The position numbers and the translations under genes were made by a program. The notes beneath the pieces were generated by a model. That model searched no databases, was not told where the DNA came from, and worked only from the letters and a program-made list of their open reading frames with translations. This document shows positions 49,378 through 64,000 of a DNA stretch of 64,000 nucleotides, one piece after another. The stretch is taken from the NCBI GenBank assembly GCA_025454875.1, contig JALONP010000010.1, positions 1-64,000 of the forward strand, in the 5' to 3' direction. Position 1 is the first letter of the stretch. Each line of letters begins with the position of its first letter. The stretch is from Bacteroidia bacterium (GTDB taxonomy: Bacteria; Bacteroidota; Bacteroidia; UKL13-3).

Positions 49378-51207
49378 TTATTCTTTAATGATTTTGGTGA
49401 ATGTATCGTTGCCATTTATACCCACCTTAACAGTGTAAATACCCATTGGCAATGACATGATATTGAGATTTACATTATTTGAGTTTGGTTCGCTTGCTAA
49501 AACAACTTGACCCAATGCATTGTAAATGGTAATATTTTGTACGTTGCTTGCTGTTTGAATATAAAGAACATTGCTAGTAGGATTAGGATAGATTCCTACC
49601 AACTCTTTCGTACTCGATTTTACACTCGTAGTAGGATTCTTGCTGAACAACACATTATCAATGTAAGCGGTTGAAGAACCAGCAGGTGAACTTGCAAAAA
49701 TCAATTGTGCAATATTCGATTTGGTGGTAAGGCCTGTCATAGCAGAAACTGCCACAGTAACGTGATTCCACCCATTCAATGTTGGCGTAATTGTTACTTC
49801 ATGTTCTACATCATCTCCACCAGCAAAAGCTGAGTCAGCTCCGAAATCAACTAATTTTGTTCTGAAAGATGTAGAGTTTGGCGTCCATACGTCAAATTCA
49901 AACGTATCCATGGTGGTAATATCAAGTTGATTTGCAACCATTTCAATTCCTACAAAATCTAATCCAGTATATTTTTTTACATCGTTTCCAGCAACTTGGG
50001 TTTCGGTAAGTGTTGCGGCAGACCATGATGTTCTCCACGTATCAACAGGCACGTTGGTATATGCATTGCTAAACAATGAAATAACATTAGCTGCTGCTTT
50101 GGTTGGAGTTGGCGCAGCTACGGTTGGCTCAGCAACTACAGCATTTTTGCTAAACATCACATTATCTATGTATACAACAGATGATCCTGCTGGTGAACTT
50201 GCAAAAATCAGTTGCGCAATATTCGATTTAGTAACAAGACCAGTCATGCTAGCTATAGGCACTGCTACATGGTTCCAACCATTTAAAGTTGGGGTAATGA
50301 TCGTTTCATGCTCTACATCATCACCACCTCCAAATGCACCATTTGCACCGAAGTCAACCACCTTAAATCTAAATGAAGTAGAATTTGGCGTCCATAAGTC
50401 AAACTCAAACATCTCCATTGAATCAATATCAAGTTGGTTGGCTACCATTTCAATACCAACAAAATCCAATCCTGAATATCTTTTAACATCGTCTGTTGCA
50501 ACTTGAATATCGGTAAGAGTTCCTTGAGACCATGAGGTTCTCCAAGTGTCTACTGGCACGTTGGTATAAGCATTGCTGAACAATGAAATGACATCTGCAG
50601 CAGGTTTGGTTGGCGTTGTAGCTGCCGCAGTAGGTTCTGCTAGTGCACTGCCTGACGTGAATCGAATATTATCAAAATAACAAATATTATCTGCTCCTCT
50701 ACCTGCTAAATTAAAATCAGGAAAAATTGCGATTTGAACAATATCTGTCATTTGAGGATTGCCAATGAGTGGAGCAAAGTTGAAAGTTAATTCTTCCCAC
50801 TCATTAATTTTGGTATTGGCTACTTTAATTTCACCCGTAGAACCGTTGTCAGCTCGAATAAACTTGATTCCAACATCACTGATAGCGGGTTTGTAAACCA
50901 TGATTTTGACAGTTGCATTTGAAGCCGATAATGTAAACGTACCAAGGTCCACGGTCTTTTGAGACTCACATCCTGCCCATGGCTGACCCGCTTGAAGTGC
51001 AGTAAATTTTGCAACTTTAGCAGAAGTGTTTGGAGCTACTGAACTCGGATTGTTCACAATTTCCACTGCCGGATTGGTAGCGTTCTCAAAAGTTGTCCAT
51101 GTCCAAGTTGCACCATTACCTCCCGTTTCAAAATCAATTGGCGCGTTTTGAGAGAATCCTATACTTACAATAAGTAAGGATAACGTTAAAGTAATAATTT
51201 TTTTCAT
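49378..51207 (-). CDS. T9SS type A sorting domain protein with tandem carbohydrate-binding-like modules
   Basis: Signal peptide; two near-identical ~169-aa modules ('SLFSNAYTNVPVDTWRTSW...YIDNV'); C-terminal 'VGIYPNPTSNVLYI...YNALGQVV...LPMGIYTVKV'. Confidence 0.9.
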   Translation of the reverse strand: MKKIITLTLSLLIVSIGFSQNAPIDFETGGNGATWTWTTFENATNPAVEIVNNPSSVAPNTSAKVAKFTALQAGQPWAGCESQKTVDLGTFTLSASNATVKIMVYKPAISDVGIKFIRADNGSTGEIKVANTKINEWEELTFNFAPLIGNPQMTDIVQIAIFPDFNLAGRGADNICYFDNIRFTSGSALAEPTAAATTPTKPAADVISLFSNAYTNVPVDTWRTSWSQGTLTDIQVATDDVKRYSGLDFVGIEMVANQLDIDSMEMFEFDLWTPNSTSFRFKVVDFGANGAFGGGDDVEHETIITPTLNGWNHVAVPIASMTGLVTKSNIAQLIFASSPAGSSVVYIDNVMFSKNAVVAEPTVAAPTPTKAAANVISLFSNAYTNVPVDTWRTSWSAATLTETQVAGNDVKKYTGLDFVGIEMVANQLDITTMDTFEFDVWTPNSTSFRTKLVDFGADSAFAGGDDVEHEVTITPTLNGWNHVTVAVSAMTGLTTKSNIAQLIFASSPAGSSTAYIDNVLFSKNPTTSVKSSTKELVGIYPNPTSNVLYIQTASNVQNITIYNALGQVVLASEPNSNNVNLNIMSLPMGIYTVKVGINGNDTFTKIIKE

Positions 51208-51313: not shown

Positions 51314-52039
51314 ATGAAAATACCCAGTTCATACTATATATCTGACTATAAACTACCACTTGAAGAATATTTCGTTTTTGGCTTATCGGTTGATTGCGTA
51401 GTATTTGGATACCATGAAGGAGAAATCAAGGTATTACTCGTACAACGTGATGCTGAGCCCTTCAAAGGCCATTGGGCTTTAATCGGTGATTTGGTAGAGC
51501 CAGATCAAAACTTGCGTGACGCAGCCAACAATGTATTGGAAAAACTTACTGGCCTCAAGAATATTTACATGAAGCAATTTTTCACCTTTGGAAGCGTGGA
51601 TAGGCATCCTGTTGGAAGGGTTGTAACGGTTGGTTATTTTTCATTGGTTAACAGCATCGATTATCATCCCATTGCCTCATCATGGGCTAAATCAGCCGAA
51701 TGGTTTAATATTAATGATTTACCTGAGCTGGCATTTGACCACCAAAATATTTTGTCAAAAGGGATTGAAACGCTTAAAAATGAGGTACGACATAAACCCA
51801 CAGGATTTGAACTACTCCCAAGCAAGTTCACCCTTTTAGAACTCCAACAATTGTATGAAGCTCTTTTGGGGTATAAATTTGACAAATCTAATTTTAGGAA
51901 AAAAATTCTGGAGATGAATATTCTAAAACCACTAAATGAGGTAAAGGAAAAAGTATCACACCGACCCGCTAAACTATTCAAGTTTGACGAAAAAAGATAC
52001 CGAGCGCTCGAAAAGGAAGGATTCTCTTTTGAACTATGA
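51314..52039 (+). CDS. NrtR/AraR-type regulator: Nudix-like N-domain plus wHTH
   Basis: 'VDCVVFGYHEGEIKVLLVQRDAEPFKGHWALIGDLVEPDQNLRDAANNVLEKLTGL' with a degenerate Nudix box; C-terminal winged helix. Confidence 0.82.
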   Translation: MKIPSSYYISDYKLPLEEYFVFGLSVDCVVFGYHEGEIKVLLVQRDAEPFKGHWALIGDLVEPDQNLRDAANNVLEKLTGLKNIYMKQFFTFGSVDRHPVGRVVTVGYFSLVNSIDYHPIASSWAKSAEWFNINDLPELAFDHQNILSKGIETLKNEVRHKPTGFELLPSKFTLLELQQLYEALLGYKFDKSNFRKKILEMNILKPLNEVKEKVSHRPAKLFKFDEKRYRALEKEGFSFEL

Positions 52040-52081: not shown

Positions 52082-53023
52082 TTAAATTTTGGGTTGTCCT
52101 CTTTGCTGAAAAACCAATTTAGGTGTTCTGTCTGTTTTAAAAACACCCCAATGCTTTTCAGGTTCCATCGGGTCAGCAGAGCCTTTCCATTTTTCGTCAA
52201 ATGCTTCAAAAAAGAATGTCAGAATATTGTTTTGAATAGACCATGCCATTAAATCTTCGTAATATATTCTTTGATTCTCTTCATTTACATGCTCAGTATT
52301 GATGCCAACCCCATGCGAATTGGTTGCCCATCCCGCTTCAGTTATTACTACCGGAATATGGGGATACTGTTTAGCTACTACCTGATAGTTTGCGATTGTA
52401 TAATCAACCGCCTCATGAATATGCTTGTACTCCCAAACCGGATAAGTATGTATTGAAATAAAATCGATATGAGGAACTAATGGTGCTAAATAATTTAACC
52501 AAGGCACATAGTTCTCACAAAAAGTAACAGGTTGCTTCACCTGCTGTTTAACGCGTTTAGCAAACTCAATCACACGATCCACCGGAACAAAATGATCTGT
52601 CCAATCCACACATGCTTCGTTGCCTAATGATACTGTGGAAATAATTTCAGGGTATACATTTGCCCAGTCTATTAACCGTTGAATTTTGATGTCATTGTTT
52701 TTTTTATTTTCAATCAATTGTTCCTCCTCATATACGCCACCACCCCAAGGACACCCATGATTGTTCATTTCTGCTACAATATAAGCTCCGAGCATCAGTT
52801 TAAAACTCAACTTTTCTTGCTCAATTACTTTTATCACAGTTAATGCATGCTCGTCACAATCGTACAAGCGCAAGTAGTTCCAATGTGGTTGTAAAAGCAA
52901 CAAATCTTCCTTTATTTCTTCGTAAGATGGCGTGATGCCTCCGGGTTGTTGCCCATCTCTAAAACCCGAATAACAAATTGCCTTGGCATAAGGCAAATTA
53001 AATCGTTTAAAAAAATCGTTCAT
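52082..53023 (-). CDS. GH17-like glycoside hydrolase (no signal peptide seen)
   Basis: 'AICYSGFRDGQQPGG', 'VSLGNEACV', 'VVITEAGWATNS' (putative acid/base and nucleophile Glu). Confidence 0.82.
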   Translation of the reverse strand: MNDFFKRFNLPYAKAICYSGFRDGQQPGGITPSYEEIKEDLLLLQPHWNYLRLYDCDEHALTVIKVIEQEKLSFKLMLGAYIVAEMNNHGCPWGGGVYEEEQLIENKKNNDIKIQRLIDWANVYPEIISTVSLGNEACVDWTDHFVPVDRVIEFAKRVKQQVKQPVTFCENYVPWLNYLAPLVPHIDFISIHTYPVWEYKHIHEAVDYTIANYQVVAKQYPHIPVVITEAGWATNSHGVGINTEHVNEENQRIYYEDLMAWSIQNNILTFFFEAFDEKWKGSADPMEPEKHWGVFKTDRTPKLVFQQRGQPKI

Positions 53024-53952
53024 TAAAATTTCAATCGTTCATTTTTATCCCATAATCCCCAATAAGCACCAACGTCTCCTTCTGGACCCACTTTCCATGA
53101 TTCATCAAAAGACGCAAAATAGAAACTTTCAATTCCGTTCAAGTGACACCAATTTTGACAATCAATAAAATACCGCATGGCATTTTCAGGAGTTGCAACG
53201 GATGCCTTAAATGCTCCACCTTCGCTAGGCCAACCAGTTTCTGTTATAATCACACGTTTGCCTTGGCCTGCATTTTTTGCAGACTCATACATGCTTCTCA
53301 TGTGTTCAAAAGAATATTCGATAGGACATCCTTCCCAATAAGGATAACAATTGGTTAAAATAACATCACATATTTCTGTGATTCGTGGCCTATGTGAAAA
53401 CTCATAATAGGCATCCACATAACCAACTGGAATATGTGGAATTGCATCTTTAACTCGTTGAATATAACTAAGCAATTGTTCTTCGGTTAACTCCTTTCGG
53501 TACATTACTTCATTGCCAACCGCTGCTACATCAACCAACCCTTCCTTTGCCATTGCAATGAGGGCTTCTATTTCTTGCTCATTTAATTCCAAATCATCCC
53601 CAAGCCAAGCACCCACAAGTGTTTTCATTCCATGTTTTTTGGCCATCCTCGCTACATGTTCATTGCCTTCGATACACGAAAAAGAACGTATCCATTTGGC
53701 ATGCGGCTTGAGTATTCGAATGCGTCTTTCCACTTGCGCTTCTGTAATGATGGAACCTGGCTTTTGTCCATCTTCATAAATGCTAAAGCAAATGCCATGC
53801 ATTCCCCTTTGGAGTGTTTGTTGCCACAACGCTCGTAAATCACTTGACGAAAGTTCGGCATACTGTATTGGAACATACGATTGATGCTGATGCCCATGAG
53901 TAAAATTGGCTTGCTGTTCGTTGGTAAAAAAATGACCTTCTCTATATGACAT
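53023..53952 (-). CDS. GH17-like glycoside hydrolase (no signal peptide seen)
   Basis: 'GICFSIYEDGQKPGS', 'AAVGNEVMYR', 'VIITETGWPSEGG', 'FYFASFDESWK'. Confidence 0.85.
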   Translation of the reverse strand: MSYREGHFFTNEQQANFTHGHQHQSYVPIQYAELSSSDLRALWQQTLQRGMHGICFSIYEDGQKPGSIITEAQVERRIRILKPHAKWIRSFSCIEGNEHVARMAKKHGMKTLVGAWLGDDLELNEQEIEALIAMAKEGLVDVAAVGNEVMYRKELTEEQLLSYIQRVKDAIPHIPVGYVDAYYEFSHRPRITEICDVILTNCYPYWEGCPIEYSFEHMRSMYESAKNAGQGKRVIITETGWPSEGGAFKASVATPENAMRYFIDCQNWCHLNGIESFYFASFDESWKVGPEGDVGAYWGLWDKNERLKF

Positions 53953-53962
53953 GACCTAACAA

Positions 53963-56317
53963 TTATTTTTTAAACTTAAACTGTTCATTCTTATCCCACA
54001 ATCCCCAAGAGGTTCCCACTTTGCCCTCTTGTACCACTTTCCAAGATTCGTCAAATGATGAAAAATGAAAAAGCTCAATATTGCCTTTTCTTGCCCATTC
54101 ATGTGAATCGATAAAATAACGCATTGCATTTACCCTTGATGGAACGGCATTGTCCACAATCTCACCAAAACTTGGCCAGCCCGATTCTGTTACAATAACT
54201 TTCTTACCCTTACTAGCAGCTTGGGTTATTTCAAACATGTTTGAAAGATAAGAAACGGAATAATCAATAGATGCCCCTTCCCAAAAAGGATAAAAATTAC
54301 ATAAAAGTAAATCGCATGCATCAACCAAGTTAGGCCTGTCTAAAAACTGATAGTACGCATCTACATAACCTACTTTGATTGAACTCGGAATGGATTTTCG
54401 AACCCGTGTGATATAATCTATCAATTCCGCTTCGGTAATTTCGCCCCTATGCAGCACCTCATTTCCAACAGCTGCAATAGCCACCAATCCTCTGTTCGCA
54501 AGCTGAATCAATGAATTGATTTCACGTTCGTTTCGTTCTTTATCATTACTAATCCAGGCGCCCACCATTGTTTTAATACCTTTATTACTTGCAATTTCAG
54601 GCACCAATTCATTTCCTGCTGTACAAGAAAATGTTCTAATCCATTTGGTATGTGGTGCAATAATTTCTATCCTTCTTTGAATTTGTTCTGCTGATAAAAT
54701 ATCACTTTCCTTTTGCCCTTCAACGTAAGGGCTGAAACACAATCCATTCATCCCTAAATTAAATTGCGTTGAGAATAATGCTTCTATTTCCGCTTCACTT
54801 TTTTGGCTATAGTCGATTCCTATTATTTGATTCAAGTTATTGTTGTGCAGTAATGAACTTAATTTACCTGATAAATAGCCAGAAGATTGTATCTTCATAG
54901 GTGACTTTCTTTTATCAAGTATACTTCTTACCTCCTTTGCTTTGGCTTCATCAATATCATAATCTTTCATTGCCCATAATGCTGTTAAGGTTCCCAATAT
55001 GGGGATTCCAACAAAGAAAATCCGCAACCAGAACATTGTTTCATCTGTTTGTGTAGGCGCATTGGATTGAAAGCTTACCAACGAAAGAATTAACCCGCTT
55101 ATTAAGCCAGCTACTGCTGTACCAAATTTTACCATCCACCAATAAATAGCCCCCAAGCTTCCTTCCCTTCTTTTACCCGAATTTAACTCATCAATATCGA
55201 TTACATCTGATGTCATCGACATCATTAATGTAAACAGACTTCCAATACCAAAAGAAAAGAATGGGAGTGCGAATAGAAATAGGTAAGGTTTACCCGGAAC
55301 AAATAGCAAAAAGAGTAAAATATAACCCACTATTGAAATACCCTGCGAAAGTAAAAATGCCTTCTTTTTTCCCATTGCTTTAGACATTCGCGCTACAATG
55401 GGTATTACCAGTACTGTTGTGATAATAGCACCTATGCTCCCAAACAATGTTGGCCATAATCCAAAACCCTCTTCATTTCCTTTAAACAAATAATATTTGA
55501 TAATAAAGTAAGAGAAGCCCGCAGTTGTTTGAAAAGCATTAAAAATTAAAAACGTTGCAATGCAAATTTTCCTGAACGGTTCAATTTCAACCGATGCCTT
55601 TAATCCTTCTTTGATCTCACCAAAGCTGTTTAAGATTCCTTTTAAATCAATCGGACTGTAATTTTCATTAACCGTAGACTTGCTCGGTATAAAAAATGCT
55701 GGAATAGCAGCCAAAATAGCACAACCAATGGCAACATACACAGCTAACGTTCTAACGGCAACTTCACTCGATGGAAACAGTGTTTGATCTCCCATAATTA
55801 CCCAAAACCATGGTGCAATTACCCACGCTAACTGACCAATGAGTTGAGAGGTAGCCATAATATTTGTTCGCTCATGAAAATCATCACTCATTTCATAACC
55901 CATGGCTACATAAGGAATACTAAATATGGTGAGTCCCGAATAAAAGATTAATGAAATTCCTAAAAAGTAAATAAAATTATACGTTACACCATCTTCAACA
56001 TAGAGTTGCCACATCAATGCAAACGAAATTCCCAAGATAATCGCTCCGATTAACACGTATTGTCTTCTTCTGCCCCATTTTGACTTGGTGTTATCGCTAA
56101 CGTAGCCCATCACAAGATCAAACAATGCATCATAAAACTTTGGAATGAAATAGGTTAAGCCAAGCAGTAACCCACTAAACCCGAGTTTTTCTACCAGTAC
56201 AACAGTAAAAATTCCCAACGCAGCAGGAAACATTTGATTGGCTAACATTCCGAGTCCAAATGCAACCTTTTGCCCCATTGGAACTTTGTGTGATAACGCT
56301 TGACTGGCCATATTCAT
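53963..56317 (-). CDS. GPH/MFS-type sugar transporter fused to a C-terminal GH17-like domain
   Basis: Residues ~1-473 polytopic with 'DALFDLVMGYVSDNTKSKWGRRRQYVLIGA'; residues ~474-784 'GLCFSPYVEGQKESD...AAVGNEVLHR...VIVTESGWPS...FDESWK'. Confidence 0.87.
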   Translation of the reverse strand: MNMASQALSHKVPMGQKVAFGLGMLANQMFPAALGIFTVVLVEKLGFSGLLLGLTYFIPKFYDALFDLVMGYVSDNTKSKWGRRRQYVLIGAIILGISFALMWQLYVEDGVTYNFIYFLGISLIFYSGLTIFSIPYVAMGYEMSDDFHERTNIMATSQLIGQLAWVIAPWFWVIMGDQTLFPSSEVAVRTLAVYVAIGCAILAAIPAFFIPSKSTVNENYSPIDLKGILNSFGEIKEGLKASVEIEPFRKICIATFLIFNAFQTTAGFSYFIIKYYLFKGNEEGFGLWPTLFGSIGAIITTVLVIPIVARMSKAMGKKKAFLLSQGISIVGYILLFLLFVPGKPYLFLFALPFFSFGIGSLFTLMMSMTSDVIDIDELNSGKRREGSLGAIYWWMVKFGTAVAGLISGLILSLVSFQSNAPTQTDETMFWLRIFFVGIPILGTLTALWAMKDYDIDEAKAKEVRSILDKRKSPMKIQSSGYLSGKLSSLLHNNNLNQIIGIDYSQKSEAEIEALFSTQFNLGMNGLCFSPYVEGQKESDILSAEQIQRRIEIIAPHTKWIRTFSCTAGNELVPEIASNKGIKTMVGAWISNDKERNEREINSLIQLANRGLVAIAAVGNEVLHRGEITEAELIDYITRVRKSIPSSIKVGYVDAYYQFLDRPNLVDACDLLLCNFYPFWEGASIDYSVSYLSNMFEITQAASKGKKVIVTESGWPSFGEIVDNAVPSRVNAMRYFIDSHEWARKGNIELFHFSSFDESWKVVQEGKVGTSWGLWDKNEQFKFKK

Positions 56318-56321
56318 TTAT

Positions 56322-57833
56322 TTAATGTTTTAGAATAATTGTTTGCAAAGCCTTTGAATCAATTGCAATACGTTTAACCTCATTATTGATATTGATTGAA
56401 ACAGCAAATCGTTCACTTGTTGGGTTGAACAACGCTATCACAATGCTTCCATCTGGATTCTGTACGGCTGTTGCCATTACCTCCTCATGGTTAATATCAC
56501 ACCCAATTCTTACAGCTCCCGGACGCATGAACTTGCTAAAATGTGCCATTACATAATACAGGGGCGTGTAGTAAACTTCGTCCTTTTCTGTATCAACAAT
56601 TACTGGAGCAACACACCAGTTTTTAAACCAGTTTGGCCCTCCTTGCCTATCTAATACCATATTCCAATCAATCCAACCATGCACATAATTGTTTAAACAC
56701 CCAATAATATCCGTTGCGTATCGGTTAACTGGAGCATACTTGGGATGCAAATGTTTGTCTTGTTCACTTGCCCAATCCCAACCCCAATCTGTTGCTTCCT
56801 TTTTCCAATACCAAGCATCATCGTTCCATTTTGGAACTTCAGAATCGATGCACCCTTCCGTTTCAATGAGGTACTTGTTAGGTGCTTTTGTATGCGCATA
56901 TTGCAATGCTTCTGGAAAATAATCGTAGGTACTTTCATACCAATGTATGGCGGTTCCTGCAAAATATGTTGACGACTTTTCATCTCTGTACATTTCATCA
57001 ACCCACTCCTTTAAACCTGCTCTGTTTTGATCATAACCCAAAATATGAACATTACCCCACCCATCGTTTGCTAGTTTTGGACCTAAATGGTTTTGAACAA
57101 AATCAGTCATTTCCTTAGGAGAAAACAAGGTGCTTTCCCAATTATTTCCATTCCCGTGGGGTTCATTTATTACGGTAACACCCCAAATATTGATGCCTTC
57201 TTTTTGGTATGCAGTTAAGTATTTTGAAAAATACAATGCAAATGCATCATTGTACTGCGGTAATAATTTACCTCCAACAAAACTTTTGTTGTCTTTCATC
57301 CACGGTGGAGCAGTCCATGGTGACGAGATGATTTTAAAGCCTTCCTTCGAAATCTTTTGTGCATCGTTAATCATTGGAATCAAATCTTGCAGATCTTCTG
57401 CAATAGAAAAGTGGGTAAGTTCCAAATCATTTTCAGCTTTAGCATAGGTATAATTGTCCAGCGAAAAATCACATGAAGCGATATGTGTTCGGGTTAAAGA
57501 ATACCTTGCGCCCTCATCGCTAAAATAAGCTTCTAATACTTTTCTTCGGTTTTCAACGCTTAACTTGTTAAGCACGTAGGCAGAAGCTTCGGTAAAAGAT
57601 CCTCCAAATCCAACAATTTTTTGAAATTGCTCATCCGGGTTAATTTGAATGATTAATGATTTGTCAGCAGGATTAAAATCTTGGATTAAGGTTAATGCAT
57701 TTCCCCTTTCGGAGGTTTCATATACATCCATCGTCATTTTTTTTGCATCATTACATTGAACACAAACAGCACATATCATCCCAATGATAATAGTATTTAA
57801 AGAATGTAAATGCCGTTTAGTCTTCATCATCAT
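56322..57833 (-). CDS. GH30 family glycoside hydrolase (endo-beta-1,6-glucanase/glucosylceramidase-like)
   Basis: 'QKIVGFGGSFTEASAYVLNKLS', 'SPWTAPPWMKDNKSFVGG', 'GVTVINEPHGNGNNWEST', 'IETEGCID'. Confidence 0.9.
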   Translation of the reverse strand: MMMKTKRHLHSLNTIIIGMICAVCVQCNDAKKMTMDVYETSERGNALTLIQDFNPADKSLIIQINPDEQFQKIVGFGGSFTEASAYVLNKLSVENRRKVLEAYFSDEGARYSLTRTHIASCDFSLDNYTYAKAENDLELTHFSIAEDLQDLIPMINDAQKISKEGFKIISSPWTAPPWMKDNKSFVGGKLLPQYNDAFALYFSKYLTAYQKEGINIWGVTVINEPHGNGNNWESTLFSPKEMTDFVQNHLGPKLANDGWGNVHILGYDQNRAGLKEWVDEMYRDEKSSTYFAGTAIHWYESTYDYFPEALQYAHTKAPNKYLIETEGCIDSEVPKWNDDAWYWKKEATDWGWDWASEQDKHLHPKYAPVNRYATDIIGCLNNYVHGWIDWNMVLDRQGGPNWFKNWCVAPVIVDTEKDEVYYTPLYYVMAHFSKFMRPGAVRIGCDINHEEVMATAVQNPDGSIVIALFNPTSERFAVSININNEVKRIAIDSKALQTIILKH

Positions 57834-59096
57834 TTATCTTTTAAGAGGGAGTTCAACATTTTTTAATAACTCTACTTCATTGCCGTCATGCGTCTTTACA
57901 ACGGGATTTCCATCTCTTGTTAAGTTGTTAAAAACACCTTGGTCCACTTTTCCCCATAACGCATATTTGGCTTTACCCTTAAGGGTAAATAAACCAAAAT
58001 GATTTTCGGAGCCCCGCGGATTACGGGCATCTTTCCATTGCTCATCAAATGCTTCAAAATAAAAGCAAGTAATTTTTTCTTTATTGGTCCATGCCCTCAT
58101 TAATTGGTAATACCTTGCTGATTTAAACTCATCACACGCTTTTGATCCTTCATTACCATAAAAGCCATCGGATTGGGTTGCCCAACCTGTTTCGCCAATA
58201 TGAATGGGCTTGTTGATTCCAATTGACTTCATGTAATTTTTTACATTTAAATACTGGCTTTTAGCATAATTGAGTGAACGCACCATTAAGCTGTCTATCT
58301 GTACTTCTTTTGATAAACTTTCTTCATTGCTATCCACGTACCAAAACGATGGATTATAGTGTGTATCGTGCATTGGGTACGTATGTATCGAAACGTAATC
58401 AACTGCTTGGTATAATTTGGTTAAATCTTCTACATGGTATGATGAATCACCTCCCCCCCAAGATGCAAAATTATCAGAAGATGTGATCCAAATGTCTTTT
58501 GGTAACCCATTCGCTTTTTTGAGTTTCTGTAAATAATTTACCCATTTTAATATAAATGCAGGTGTCACGTAATAGCTAGTTGCCCACTTTACCATGGCTT
58601 CATTACCTACCGAAATTATTATAACAATATGGGGATACTGATTTGCCAATTCAACTGCTCTGCGAATTTCTGCAGCATTCGCTTGTTCATTCTCTCGTTG
58701 ATGATTTGGTTGGTTTTGGGTCCAAGCATTTTCACAATCAATCCATGCTCCCAGCATAACATACATTTCAAAACCCGGTTTTAACTGCTGCAATTGGGTA
58801 ATCGCTTTTAATACATTACGCACTTCATCAAACTGTGTATTGTATGTACGAATGAGTTTAATGCCCATTGCATTCAAAATCATGAGGTCTTCCCTAATTT
58901 GCTCAATGCTTGGTTGAGAGTCGCGCGTGATTGTACGATAACCTCCATAACAAATGGCCAAATAATTTGAGTCACCCAAAATTTCAGAAGCTGTTTTAGA
59001 CTGAGTAGGTGAATGCGGGTTTGTGTTCGGCCCACAACAAGTTAGCACAACCAAGAAGAATAGAATCAAATGATATGGTAAGCCGACCTTTTGCAT
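57834..59096 (-). CDS. GH17-like lipoprotein
   Basis: Lipobox 'LVVLTCCGPN'; 'AICYGGYRTITRDSQPS', 'ISVGNEAMVKW', 'HIGETGWATQSDG', 'YFEAFDEQWK'. Confidence 0.83.
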   Translation of the reverse strand: MQKVGLPYHLILFFLVVLTCCGPNTNPHSPTQSKTASEILGDSNYLAICYGGYRTITRDSQPSIEQIREDLMILNAMGIKLIRTYNTQFDEVRNVLKAITQLQQLKPGFEMYVMLGAWIDCENAWTQNQPNHQRENEQANAAEIRRAVELANQYPHIVIIISVGNEAMVKWATSYYVTPAFILKWVNYLQKLKKANGLPKDIWITSSDNFASWGGGDSSYHVEDLTKLYQAVDYVSIHTYPMHDTHYNPSFWYVDSNEESLSKEVQIDSLMVRSLNYAKSQYLNVKNYMKSIGINKPIHIGETGWATQSDGFYGNEGSKACDEFKSARYYQLMRAWTNKEKITCFYFEAFDEQWKDARNPRGSENHFGLFTLKGKAKYALWGKVDQGVFNNLTRDGNPVVKTHDGNEVELLKNVELPLKR

Positions 59097-59100
59097 GGTG

Positions 59101-62100
59101 TTACTTCAACATTGATTGGTTTACGTATACAGTAATTTTAACAACGTCTCCTGTTCGGTTAAAAATTTGCATACTCACTTTAACGTCTAACTCAAAAGCA
59201 GGTTGCTTGATGATTGTACCATCTTGTTTTTCAATTTCCATATAATGCTCATTGGCTAAACGGTATACGATTGGTACTTGGCAAAATGTAAAACAGAGTG
59301 ACCCAATTGGAGGTTCGAATATTTTGTGTTCTTTATGAATCGTAACATAACGGAATACGCGATCGCTTGTTGTAAACTCATCTTTACGTAATAAGCATGG
59401 GTTAAAATGCAAACGTCCATCCAGTACAAAAACACCCAACTCACCAAACCTACTTAAAATATCTTCTTTCACTTGGCCAGTCATGCCCGGTTGTTGCGCA
59501 CCTTTGTTGCTTGGTGTATGTGAATAAGGGTCTGTAGGAAATGCTCCGTACAATTCAGGCGATTTATGTACTCCAACTCCCGCATTGATTTCATAATAAT
59601 GCTCCAATAGTCTACCGATTACTTCTGCAGATTCGTTAGCTTCGATAGCATGTAAACAAACCTCCTGAACGGCCAGCTGTAGTTTGGAAACCATATGCCA
59701 ATAAATAGACCCAAGACCTTCGTATCCATAAAAAGTTCCCGAGCGACCTGTAAATGATTTATGATCAAAAACCATTTCAAATGCATCCAAAAGATGCTGT
59801 TTTTCTTCTTTGCCTATTATTCCATATTGCGCTTGGTCTAACCCATTTAATGCTGCACTTAGGTCAGCAGCATTTTTGAAATTTCCACTAAAGTGGTAAT
59901 CGCCCAATACGTCTTTTTCCACAATTGACTTATCACGGGCGTCAAGCATTTTTTGGATGAGTGTAGACTGCTTGATTATGGATTGTGGAATTTTATTTTT
60001 CTCTAAAAACTTCGGGAGCTGTTTGTTCGGATAAAGCAAATAACTGTATTGATCCTCTCGGAAAAGTGCACTTTGTTTCATACTATCCAGCAACTTGAGT
60101 GCCTCTTTGGGTGCCAGATAACCAGAGCTCAGCACTGCAACTTGCCCTTCCAACATTTCACTTAAATGGGTAATGCGAATTTGGTTATTGTGCTCAATAC
60201 TCATCAAATTGTACGCGTGGTACATGTGATCGTTACGCTTGTTGGTGTGAATGGTATGCTCAATAAATGCCAGGCTTGACTTGATAAATGCCTTCAGCCT
60301 ACGATAGGAGATGGTTCTTTTTTCGCCCCAAAAAGTTTGCTTATAAATATGTTCCCTGTAATCACTACCTGCTTGCCCAAGGCGGTCAACAATTTCTTTT
60401 CGTTGAGAGTTATTCACTTCCCCTTTTAACAAAAATGCATATTCATCAAAAATGGCATGTATCTTTTTAAAGAAGATGATTAACTCATTTGACAACGGAA
60501 TACGTTCGTCATCGTTTTGGTTGATGAGTTTATCAAAAAACACCATAAACCTTCTAAGGTAATAGAGTGTTACCATCGAAACGCCATTTCCAACAAGGGC
60601 ATTGTTAGCGTCATTCCATTCAGGTCTTTGTGTATTCATCCAAATACCACCACCCGGAATAAAATTAGAAAGTTTAGATAAGACCGTTGCCAATATCTTT
60701 TCGATGAAATTAACGGTATAAATTTCATTGTTTTGCGCTGTGAGTAAGGCAGCATCTGAGCCAATAGCTTCACGCTTTTTGCGAATTTCTCTATCCAGCT
60801 TTTCGTCAAACTCGATTGTATCTTTTGCGTTATGTACAATTTGGCTGTATGTTTTAATTTTGTATGGAACATTGGCATACACAAAAAGGTCTTTGTGAAA
60901 TTGGCTTTGCAATTGACCAGGATAATACCTTTCATTAATCTCCAATAATTTGAGCAGGTAAATAATTTGGTGATCGCCCCAGTAACCAATATACGACCAT
61001 GGATTGTCTGGCTCTACCGTTTCCCAATCAAATCCGCCTTTGGTTAAACGATAGGGATTGTATCCTTCAAAAGTTGATGCATTTAAAAACTTATGAATCA
61101 TGCTTTGGGTAAAAGCTGGGTATGAAATGGCAAGCGCTTCCCAATTTTGAAAAATATCTCTCCAGTTTCCTTCGTAATCTAAAATTTTAGAATGGTCGAC
61201 TGCACTTCGTGTATTGATAGAAAACTTATTCCATGGCCTACTTGGATCACCATGCCTGCGGCTAAATTTGAGTGGCATGTACTCGATGCAGAGCCTTTTG
61301 AAGTGACTATCATTGACTTTGCTGTAAATATCAGACAACTCAAAAACAGTTAAGGTATCGTTCAAACCGGCTAACAATGCTTGGTGCTTTTGGTATACTT
61401 TTCTGTTTGAAGCAGCGATGAATTTAATTAAATCTCCTTTTTCAATTTGATAATTAAAGTCAAAAATCCCACCGCGCATAATATTGAAAAGGGTATTGGA
61501 AAAATGACGTGTGTCTCGGTATACATCAGCTGATAATTGAATTCCATCAGATGATGCATTTAGTTCCATTAGCCTTTGAGAACCTAGTTGAATATCAGCT
61601 TCAATTTGATTGGCTAGTTGCTTATTGCTTTTGATTTCCTGAATAAGTGCAACAATATTTGCCTGACTCTGGTTTACATCTGCTACAATCACCCATTTTT
61701 GTTGGCCTCCGGGAGCAAGTGCAATTTCCTTGTTTACAAAATATGCTCCGCGTTCGGCTTTAACATCCTCTTCTTGGGTAATCGGTTGCTTTTTTCGAAA
61801 CGCATCAAGTTGCAAAGAAGAAAGTAAATAAGCAGGATTATCCAATCCCATACTCCAAGCAATATTAGCCATTAGTGCTTCACTTGGTTCCGCTTTGTCT
61901 ACTATAATGGCGCTGAGTGCAAAAATTCCCAAACCCGAGTCAGCGTCTAATTCATTGCGTTTATATGCATCAACTAAAATACTTGTTGAGTTTTGCAAAT
62001 CGCTACTTACACCATCGGGCATGATGTTTTGGATACCATCAAGAATATTAACTTGGAGGGTAGTATTGCCTTTATTTTCTAAAGACGATTTACGAACAAA

Positions 62101-62553
62101 CCCATAAATATTACTTGAATTCCACTCATACCTGAAAGTGAGCGCAAAATTGTGATTGATTTCTTCGAAGATGATTTTATTGCCAATCGCACTTTTGTAA
62201 AGATTTCTGGTGATATTGTATGCACCTTGGTTGCGTTCCGAAAATGGCTCCCAAACCTGTACTTCACCATTTTGGATAATTTGAAAAATGGATTTGGAAC
62301 CCGTAACATCAAAAGATTCTGTAATCTTATCTGCCGTATAATATGGAAAAAGTGCATACTCTGCACTTTTACGACCAGCCGAAATACCGCCATTGCTTGA
62401 TATGAACATCCAATGATGAGAATCACTAACAATGCTCATAAAAAATGGACGAATCTGATCATGGTTTGTTATGCAAAAGAAGTTTTCTCCTTCAATTTTG
62501 AGTCGCTTAATTTCTACTAACGATTCTTGTTTCACTTGTTTTTGAGCTGACAT
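59101..62553 (-). CDS. GH94-like large phosphorylase, probable GH149 beta-1,3-oligoglucan phosphorylase
   Basis: 1150 aa, no signal peptide; 'GNWRDIFQNWEALAISYP', 'NPWSYIGYWGDHQIIYLLKLLE', 'RPEWNDANNALVGNGVSMVTLYYLRRF' (compare the GH94 'WNDGxN' acid motif); laminarin-locus context. Confidence 0.68.
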   Translation of the reverse strand: MSAQKQVKQESLVEIKRLKIEGENFFCITNHDQIRPFFMSIVSDSHHWMFISSNGGISAGRKSAEYALFPYYTADKITESFDVTGSKSIFQIIQNGEVQVWEPFSERNQGAYNITRNLYKSAIGNKIIFEEINHNFALTFRYEWNSSNIYGFVRKSSLENKGNTTLQVNILDGIQNIMPDGVSSDLQNSTSILVDAYKRNELDADSGLGIFALSAIIVDKAEPSEALMANIAWSMGLDNPAYLLSSLQLDAFRKKQPITQEEDVKAERGAYFVNKEIALAPGGQQKWVIVADVNQSQANIVALIQEIKSNKQLANQIEADIQLGSQRLMELNASSDGIQLSADVYRDTRHFSNTLFNIMRGGIFDFNYQIEKGDLIKFIAASNRKVYQKHQALLAGLNDTLTVFELSDIYSKVNDSHFKRLCIEYMPLKFSRRHGDPSRPWNKFSINTRSAVDHSKILDYEGNWRDIFQNWEALAISYPAFTQSMIHKFLNASTFEGYNPYRLTKGGFDWETVEPDNPWSYIGYWGDHQIIYLLKLLEINERYYPGQLQSQFHKDLFVYANVPYKIKTYSQIVHNAKDTIEFDEKLDREIRKKREAIGSDAALLTAQNNEIYTVNFIEKILATVLSKLSNFIPGGGIWMNTQRPEWNDANNALVGNGVSMVTLYYLRRFMVFFDKLINQNDDERIPLSNELIIFFKKIHAIFDEYAFLLKGEVNNSQRKEIVDRLGQAGSDYREHIYKQTFWGEKRTISYRRLKAFIKSSLAFIEHTIHTNKRNDHMYHAYNLMSIEHNNQIRITHLSEMLEGQVAVLSSGYLAPKEALKLLDSMKQSALFREDQYSYLLYPNKQLPKFLEKNKIPQSIIKQSTLIQKMLDARDKSIVEKDVLGDYHFSGNFKNAADLSAALNGLDQAQYGIIGKEEKQHLLDAFEMVFDHKSFTGRSGTFYGYEGLGSIYWHMVSKLQLAVQEVCLHAIEANESAEVIGRLLEHYYEINAGVGVHKSPELYGAFPTDPYSHTPSNKGAQQPGMTGQVKEDILSRFGELGVFVLDGRLHFNPCLLRKDEFTTSDRVFRYVTIHKEHKIFEPPIGSLCFTFCQVPIVYRLANEHYMEIEKQDGTIIKQPAFELDVKVSMQIFNRTGDVVKITVYVNQSMLK

Positions 62554-62659: not shown

Positions 62660-63472
62660 TTATTTAAACTTGTATACCCTAACATAATCAATAGACATGG
62701 TACCTGGAAATGGGGTATTGTCATTGGGTGGGCCTCCAAAATTTCCACCAACTGCAACATTGAGAATCATAAAAAATGGTTGGTTAAATACCCATTCACC
62801 TTTAACTTCTGAAGGAGTGATTCTTCTATACAAATAACCATTTACAAAAAAGTCAATTTGACTTTCGTTCCATTCCACAGCATAAACATAAAAATCAGTA
62901 TCGAATCGGCTGTTTTGAAGTGCATAAGGTGTAGAGATAGCTTCACCACCTGAGTATCCAGGTCCGTGAATTGTACCATATGTAATATTGGAAAACTTCC
63001 CTTTTTGCTCCATGATATCAATTTCACCGCACTGAGGCCAGCTCACACTGGTAATATTGTTTCCCAACATCCAAAACGCAGGCCACATACCCGCTCCGGT
63101 TGGTGTTTTAATGCGCGCTTCTATTTTACCATATTGTTGGGTAAATATTCCCTGTGTTTTTATTCGTGCAGAGGTATAACCCGAACCTGTTTTTCTTGCC
63201 GTGATTAGTAAATTACCTTTACCATCTAAGGATACATTCTGAGCATTGTTCGTGTACGTTTGAAGTTCATTGTTTCCCCAGCCGTTTTGGCCTGTACCCA
63301 AATCATAGGTCCATTTTTCAGCATTAGGTGCAATTCCAGAGTCACCTTCAAACTCATCACTCCAAACCAATTCGAAATTTCGTTTAGGTAAGGTTTGTAC
63401 CGGCTCAACCTCGCAACTTACAAACACGGTAACTGCGATTGCCATCAATGTTATTTTATTTATATGCTTCAT
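62660..63472 (-). CDS. GH16 family beta-glucanase (laminarinase-like), probable lipoprotein
   Basis: 'LVWSDEFEGD', 'WTYDLGTGQNGWGNNELQTYT', catalytic 'CGEIDIMEQKG'; 'TVFVSCEVEP' lipobox. Confidence 0.93.
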   Translation of the reverse strand: MKHINKITLMAIAVTVFVSCEVEPVQTLPKRNFELVWSDEFEGDSGIAPNAEKWTYDLGTGQNGWGNNELQTYTNNAQNVSLDGKGNLLITARKTGSGYTSARIKTQGIFTQQYGKIEARIKTPTGAGMWPAFWMLGNNITSVSWPQCGEIDIMEQKGKFSNITYGTIHGPGYSGGEAISTPYALQNSRFDTDFYVYAVEWNESQIDFFVNGYLYRRITPSEVKGEWVFNQPFFMILNVAVGGNFGGPPNDNTPFPGTMSIDYVRVYKFK

Positions 63473-63506: not shown

Positions 63507-64000
63507 TTACTTGTAGAAATAAATATTGTCGAGAATAAAATTAGGCCCGCCTGTTATAATAATTGCGCCAATATTGCCCTTCTGATTTAAGATTGCTCCA
63601 TTGAGCGGTATATCAAAAGATTTCCAAACTCCAGTTTGAAATCCAGACAATGTTGTTCGTAAATCTTTATCATCACCTTGCGGATTACCTGTATTTACAT
63701 CTGTTTCAATAATTCCGTTTGCACCAATATCTCTTATTTGGATACCAATACTTGCTGCAGCATTTTCTACGTATGCGTCAATATGCAAAAATCCAAGCGT
63801 TGAGGCATCAATTGGATTTTCTGTGAACATGATTCCTGTATAATTATTGGTACTGTATTGCAGCACATTTCCAGTACTTGTGGTCAGTACTTCGGTTACC
63901 GTAGTAGAACCTCCGAACCCAGGAGTAAAATTGCTTTCGGTAGCATTCACATAGGCATCGCTAAAAATTGATTTCACGTCAACTTGCGGTCTGGTAGGCA
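63507..64000 (-). CDS. C-terminal part of a modular carbohydrate-binding-like protein running off the right edge
   Basis: ORF begins at an internal GTG; the frame stays open to the edge (PTRPQVDVKSIFSDAYVNATESNF), matching the module start in the 49378-51207 protein ('PTKPAADVISLFSNAYTNVPVDTW'). Confidence 0.75.
   Translation of the reverse strand, partial: PTRPQVDVKSIFSDAYVNATESNFTPGFGGSTTVTEVLTTSTGNVLQYSTNNYTGIMFTENPIDASTLGFLHIDAYVENAAASIGIQIRDIGANGIIETDVNTGNPQGDDKDLRTTLSGFQTGVWKSFDIPLNGAILNQKGNIGAIIITGGPNFILDNIYFYK

Follow-up and report, generated by a model that had tools for sequence, protein, structure and literature searches.

A single open reading frame in the window, a stretch of 64,000 nucleotides from a Bacteroidia bacterium, joins a GPH/MFS-type transporter to a GH17 glucanase domain. 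The gene belongs to the published MFS-GH17 family of laminarin utilization loci and is of a kind already described. What seems to be new is that the importer and enzyme halves have differing histories that meet at the linker between them. The additions made here to the published work are this apparent domain swapping, a tyrosine split between fused and free GH17 domains, and an MFS::GH3 fusion. The fusion frame starts with the ATG at 56317, runs for 784 codons without an internal stop, and is divided as follows.

53963-56317, minus strand: MFS::GH17 fusion gene, 784 amino acids, a single open frame with Pfam matches to MFS_2 and Glyco_hydro_17.
54905-56284, minus strand: GPH/MFS transporter half, residues 12-471, with 12 transmembrane helices and both ends predicted to be cytosolic (PF13347, AlphaFold, Foldseek, and Lys+Arg distribution).
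54797-54904, minus strand: linker, residues 472-507, with the non-conserved Met474 (ATG at 54898), recognized from pLDDT, a drop in identity, and an apparent recombination break.
53972-54796, minus strand: GH17 core, residues 508-782, with acid/base E620, nucleophile E711, and His623 in place of Tyr136 (alignments and Foldseek).

The original prediction of one 784-residue protein with a transporter and a GH17 domain in frame is thus borne out, on the minus strand, the strand not having been named at the time. MFS_2 (PF13347) matched residues 20-457 with an E-value of 4.6e-64 (217 bits against a cut-off of 27), and Glyco_hydro_17 (PF00332) matched residues 699-782 with an E-value of 1.7e-9 (38.2 bits against a cut-off of 28.2). 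The transporter spans about residues 12-471. The GH17 domain does not begin at residue 474 as had been proposed, because the linker spans about residues 472-507; its core begins near residue 508.

An AlphaFold model built from 49 fusion sequences had a mean pLDDT of 84.8 and a pTM of 0.63, so that it does not fix the placing of the transporter and GH17 domains relative to each other. The transporter has the fold of MelB (Foldseek TM-score of 0.85 by target) and shares with the GPH sugar:cation symporters 12 transmembrane helices and cytosolic ends. It differs from MelB in sequence, with 17% identity in the structural alignment, and in carrying an enzyme domain. With the NCBIfam gph model (TIGR00792) the transporter half scored 160.4 bits, below the cut-off of 231.35, and the transported substrate and coupling ion are therefore uncertain. 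When the helices of the model are threaded with the N-terminus inside, the cytosolic loops contain 23 Lys and Arg residues and the periplasmic loops 4. No segment within the GH17 part is convincingly hydrophobic. The C-terminus is predicted to be cytosolic and so, therefore, is the GH17 domain, in agreement with the topology originally proposed.

The fusion gene is part of a cluster transcribed from one strand in the order GH16-like, GH149, GH17A, GH30, fusion, GH17B, GH17C. The genes around the fusion, and a regulator on the other strand, are listed below.

62660-63472, minus strand: lipoprotein, which we take to be GH16-like, the family being recognized from the sequence of the open reading frame; homologues in 57 of 80 related loci.
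59101-62553, minus strand: GH149 β-1,3-glucan phosphorylase (NF058639, 1753.8 bits against a cut-off of 1150).
57834-59096, minus strand: GH17A, with a lipoprotein-like N-terminus (PF00332, 30.9 bits).
56322-57833, minus strand: GH30 of the β-1,6-glucanase/glucosidase type (PF02055; NF053856 below cut-off), with an N-terminal hydrophobic segment containing a Cys.
53023-53952, minus strand: standalone cytosolic GH17B paralogue of the MlGH17B type, with the Tyr at 151 kept.
52082-53023, minus strand: GH17C, a third and more distant GH17 without a signal peptide (Pfam and locus comparison).
51314-52039, plus strand: divergent NrtR/AraR-type Nudix regulator (PF21906, PF19368).

Across the 80 related loci the fusion is accompanied by GH17B (as a neighbor) in 75, GH149 in 72, GH17A in 72, and GH30 in 69. 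No SusC/SusD-like gene was recognized among the open reading frames from 45.3 kb to contig position 79.9 kb, and the locus therefore looks like a CAZyme cluster and not a classical polysaccharide utilization locus (PUL). The regulator stands beside the cluster in 5 of the 80 loci, the closest relatives only, and regulation therefore differs between lineages.

The fusion is probably a member of its family that imports debranched laminari-oligosaccharides, its GH17 domain trimming them to glucose in the cytosol. Outside the cytoplasm, the lipoprotein GH16 together with GH30 and GH17A would cleave laminarin and remove its branches, and the GPH/MFS half would import the debranched oligosaccharides. 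The GH17 half, attached through a flexible linker to the cytosolic end of the transporter, would trim the arriving chains to glucose, alongside the GH149 phosphorylase, also cytosolic, and the standalone GH17B and GH17C. The single frame, its domains and catalytic residues, the cluster, the conservation, and the loss of the tyrosine are seen directly in the sequences; we infer the cytosolic side, the substrate, the direction of import, hydrolase over transferase activity, and any benefit of the tether. Processing of oligosaccharides during entry, the role originally suggested, is plausible and was proposed already in 2018.

A fusion of this architecture, FORMB_24740 (FbGH17B) of Formosa sp. 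Hel1_33_131, with an N-terminal MFS and a GH17 domain, has been described and assayed (Unfried et al. 2018, PMC6246565). FbGH17B is an exo-β-1,3-glucosidase that acts only on debranched laminarin, releasing glucose. The same authors found the fusion by BLAST to be common among marine Flavobacteriia; they took two of the three enzymes as periplasmic and left the side of the GH17 domain unfixed. FORMB_24740 has, like the protein described here, a 12-helix MFS followed by a C-terminal GH17 domain in one polypeptide, and lies next to GH17A and GH30, in a laminarin cluster that also encodes GH149. The present fusion differs in its host, a non-Formosa member of the Bacteroidota, in that no SusC/D-like gene was seen beside its cluster, and in having His where Formosa has Met at the Tyr136 position. 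Laminarin is a main algal storage sugar, and Sidhu et al. 2023 (PMC10108472) report a GH17-MFS fusion in the majority of the variant-1 laminarin PULs that were expressed during a bloom, and such fusions in gammaproteobacterial MAGs too. These fusions have the architecture and PUL type seen here and come from marine bloom genomes; the passages that describe them make no mention of domain swapping. The best gammaproteobacterial plasmid match in our searches, from Vibrio fortis, has an unfused transporter and a neighbor without a Pfam GH17 match.

The junction was originally read as fitting two neighboring genes joined by loss of a stop codon. The phylogenies of the two halves conflict, with the break in the linker, and the open reading frame is therefore a chimaera of an old fusion and not simply the product of such a loss. 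Transporter halves 88-93% identical to that of the window occur in loci of Flavobacterium, Chryseobacterium, and Sphingobacteriales; in their other cluster genes these loci reach only about 50-75% identity. In three loci that are near relatives by their other genes (L017, L024, and L030), GH17B is 82-84% identical and the transporter halves are 63-73% identical. Over 4371 pairs, the rank correlation of pairwise identities was 0.89 within the MFS half and 0.64 within the GH17 half, against 0.22 between the two. In sliding windows of 30 residues, identity to L021, L023, L020, and L031 fell from about 0.9 to 0.2 between the windows starting at residues 431 and 476. On the MFS data, the clade indicated by the GH17 domain and the remaining genes is rejected (AU test, p = 5e-52), as is the MFS grouping on the GH17 data (p = 4.5e-5). 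We take the two halves to have recombined within the linker. Recent horizontal transfer of the MFS half was rejected, as fourfold sites are saturated (identity of 0.36-0.44 for close MFS sequences, much as in other genes); the exchanges are therefore old. Because each half appears to have been exchanged at the linker without the other, a loose tether is favored over a rigid co-evolved channel.

Fusions of other kinds were found among the loci compared. An MFS::GH17 fusion of 820 amino acids with a long acidic linker is located at L148:3381-5843 (G042:C1). Its GH17 domain (L106/L148) groups within the clade of standalone GH17B proteins and has retained Tyr136, its linker is longer, and no separate GH17B occupies the next gene position. 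G042 is likely a second, independent origin of the fusion, although a single clade of all fusions is compatible with the AU test (p = 0.157), and a second origin is therefore no more than likely. Two in-frame MFS::GH3 fusions were also found, at L114:2131-5454 (G393:C9:26130-29450; 1107 amino acids) and L130:1501-4806 (G404:C455:14948-18250; 1101 amino acids). They are 72% identical, come from two genera of one family, and combine a broadly similar transporter with a complete GH3 domain of the β-glucosidase type. Their genes stand between those for GH16 and GH17A. The nearest transporters (L119 and L120) are unfused, one of them in the same arrangement without GH3; a close unfused relative with this gene arrangement is located at L149. 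No description of an MFS::GH3 fusion was found in the papers searched. The fused transporters at L108:256-2835 and L109:1501-3999 belong to a different MFS lineage and have about 50 extra residues around query residue 340; their GH17 domains still fall in the main fused clade. Long frames around MFS matches in G377 and G014 were considered as further fusions and rejected, being ordinary separate transporters.

It is possible, though on balance unlikely, that the fusion brings no kinetic coupling and is close to neutral, fixing 1:1 expression or localization. The exchange of the halves fits such a fusion, as does the linker, which is long (about 36 residues here, 33-70 across fusions) and evolves fast, with a mean identity of 35% against 70% for the MFS and 60% for the GH17 half. 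Four close relatives (L042, L071, L094, and L101) lost or lack the fused domain. Against near-neutrality, the fusion is retained broadly across many families, and transporter-glucosidase fusions, MFS::GH3 included, appear to have arisen repeatedly. Counting the main MFS::GH17 clade, probably G042, and MFS::GH3 in two genera, we put forward tentatively, at slightly less than even chances, that transporters were joined repeatedly to cytosolic β-glucan enzymes and that halves were swapped at the linker between distant Bacteroidota. If so, tethering of an exo-enzyme to an importer would be a selected trait and the modules would be interchangeable.

The GH17 half is a TIM barrel with both the acid/base and the nucleophile Glu. 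Both catalytic residues had been predicted, and they are E620 (VGNEV) and E711 (TESGW), which 95/95 and 94/95 of the fused homologues share, respectively. The closest solved structure is the β-1,3-glucanosyltransferase RmBgt17A of Rhizomucor miehei (4wtr; Foldseek TM-score of 0.87 by target), and residues 481-782 align with the 309-residue standalone GH17 neighbor at 49% identity. That neighbor (53023-53952) belongs to the same GH17 group, and occupies the same cluster position, as MlGH17B of Muricauda lutaonensis, a β-1,3-glucanosyltransglycosylase whose authors proposed Tyr136, Trp191, and Glu192 as a transglycosylation platform and noted Met in place of Tyr136 in FbGH17B (PMC11005184). The fusion keeps W679 and E680, equivalent to Trp191 and Glu192, but has His623 at the tyrosine position. 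MlGH17B thus differs from the fused domain in being free, in being a transglycosylase, and in keeping Tyr136. The pattern is general: this position is Tyr in 90 of 97 standalone GH17B proteins against 2 of 95 fused domains, where Leu (46), His (28), Gln (8), Met (7), and Phe (4) are found, whereas Trp191 and Glu192 are kept in both kinds alike. Since fused and standalone domains fall mostly into separate old groups in the GH17 tree, loss of the tyrosine represents a few events and not 95 independent ones. The loss is consistent with the fused half acting as a hydrolase and suits a division of labor in which the hydrolase would be fused and the transglycosylase free. Proteobacterial membrane proteins of the Glt/NdvB type also join GH17 to another domain; in contrast to the fusion, their GH17 is N-terminal, the partner is a GT2 glycosyltransferase, and the role is glucan synthesis (PMC11005184).

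A GH17 half that is mainly a transglycosylase, lengthening or branching imported oligosaccharides for GH149 or for storage, is distinctly unlikely. It would accord with the paralogy to the MlGH17B-type neighbor, with the fungal glucanosyltransferase structure, and with retention of two residues of the proposed platform for the acceptor, Trp679 and Glu680, and the authors of the MlGH17B study allowed that FbGH17B might have a transferase activity that had escaped detection (PMC11005184). These points are outweighed by the absence of the tyrosine from 93/95 fused domains and by the glucose released by the assayed fused domain, FbGH17B (PMC6246565). Hydrolysis of incoming oligosaccharides is therefore the activity that we prefer. 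The tyrosine difference between fused and free GH17 domains, the exchange of halves, and the separate GH3 fusion provide constructs and natural comparisons for the question of whether a tether speeds uptake.

Residues 474-479 of the linker have pLDDT values below 50, the lowest confidence in the model apart from the N-terminus. Met474 does lie at the junction, with its ATG at 54898 as originally noted, but the idea that it once started a second gene, joined to the first in recent times, is not supported. Its position is Met in 2/95 aligned fusions, and the bases that precede the ATG are Lys/Arg-rich codons of the C-terminal helix. A recent fusion by stop-codon loss that left a relic start was rejected because the junction Met is unconserved. 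Initiation at Met474, giving a free GH17 domain besides or in place of the fusion, would use an in-frame ATG near the domain boundary. It is most improbable given how rarely that Met occurs, given that any Met within the first 20 linker residues is found in just 16/95 fusions, and given that the adjoining gene already encodes a free cytosolic GH17B.

The chance that an assembly or sequencing error joined two genes is negligible, and an artefact is excluded even without raw reads, because independent assemblies at 85, 84, 83, 83, and 81% identity and more than 70 further loci share the single-frame fusion. It is present in 78 of the 80 loci that matched best, which come from isolates and MAGs, a figure that is not a prevalence since the locus list favors full-length matches; in an even draw across the phylum, about 17 of 397 genomes carry a single-frame fusion. 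Other Flavobacteriaceae fusions match that of the window at about 60% or more.

The cluster extends beyond the window. The frame at 63507-64000 continues as L113:3508-4929, encoding a lipoprotein-like protein of 473 residues with a Big_2 match, and is followed, past the window, by a 1073-residue protein (L113:4949-8170) with a weak match to a GH2 barrel. On the other side of the cluster, 49378-51207 on the minus strand encodes a secreted protein that has a T9SS tail and repeated modules ('GGNGATWTWTTFEN...', 'LFSNAYTNVPVDTW...'). Its Pfam matches cover the sorting tail only, and it is possibly a glucan-binding surface protein. Proteins with similar starts are encoded at L148:1946-3247 and L149:5243-7999, beside laminarin clusters of different families.
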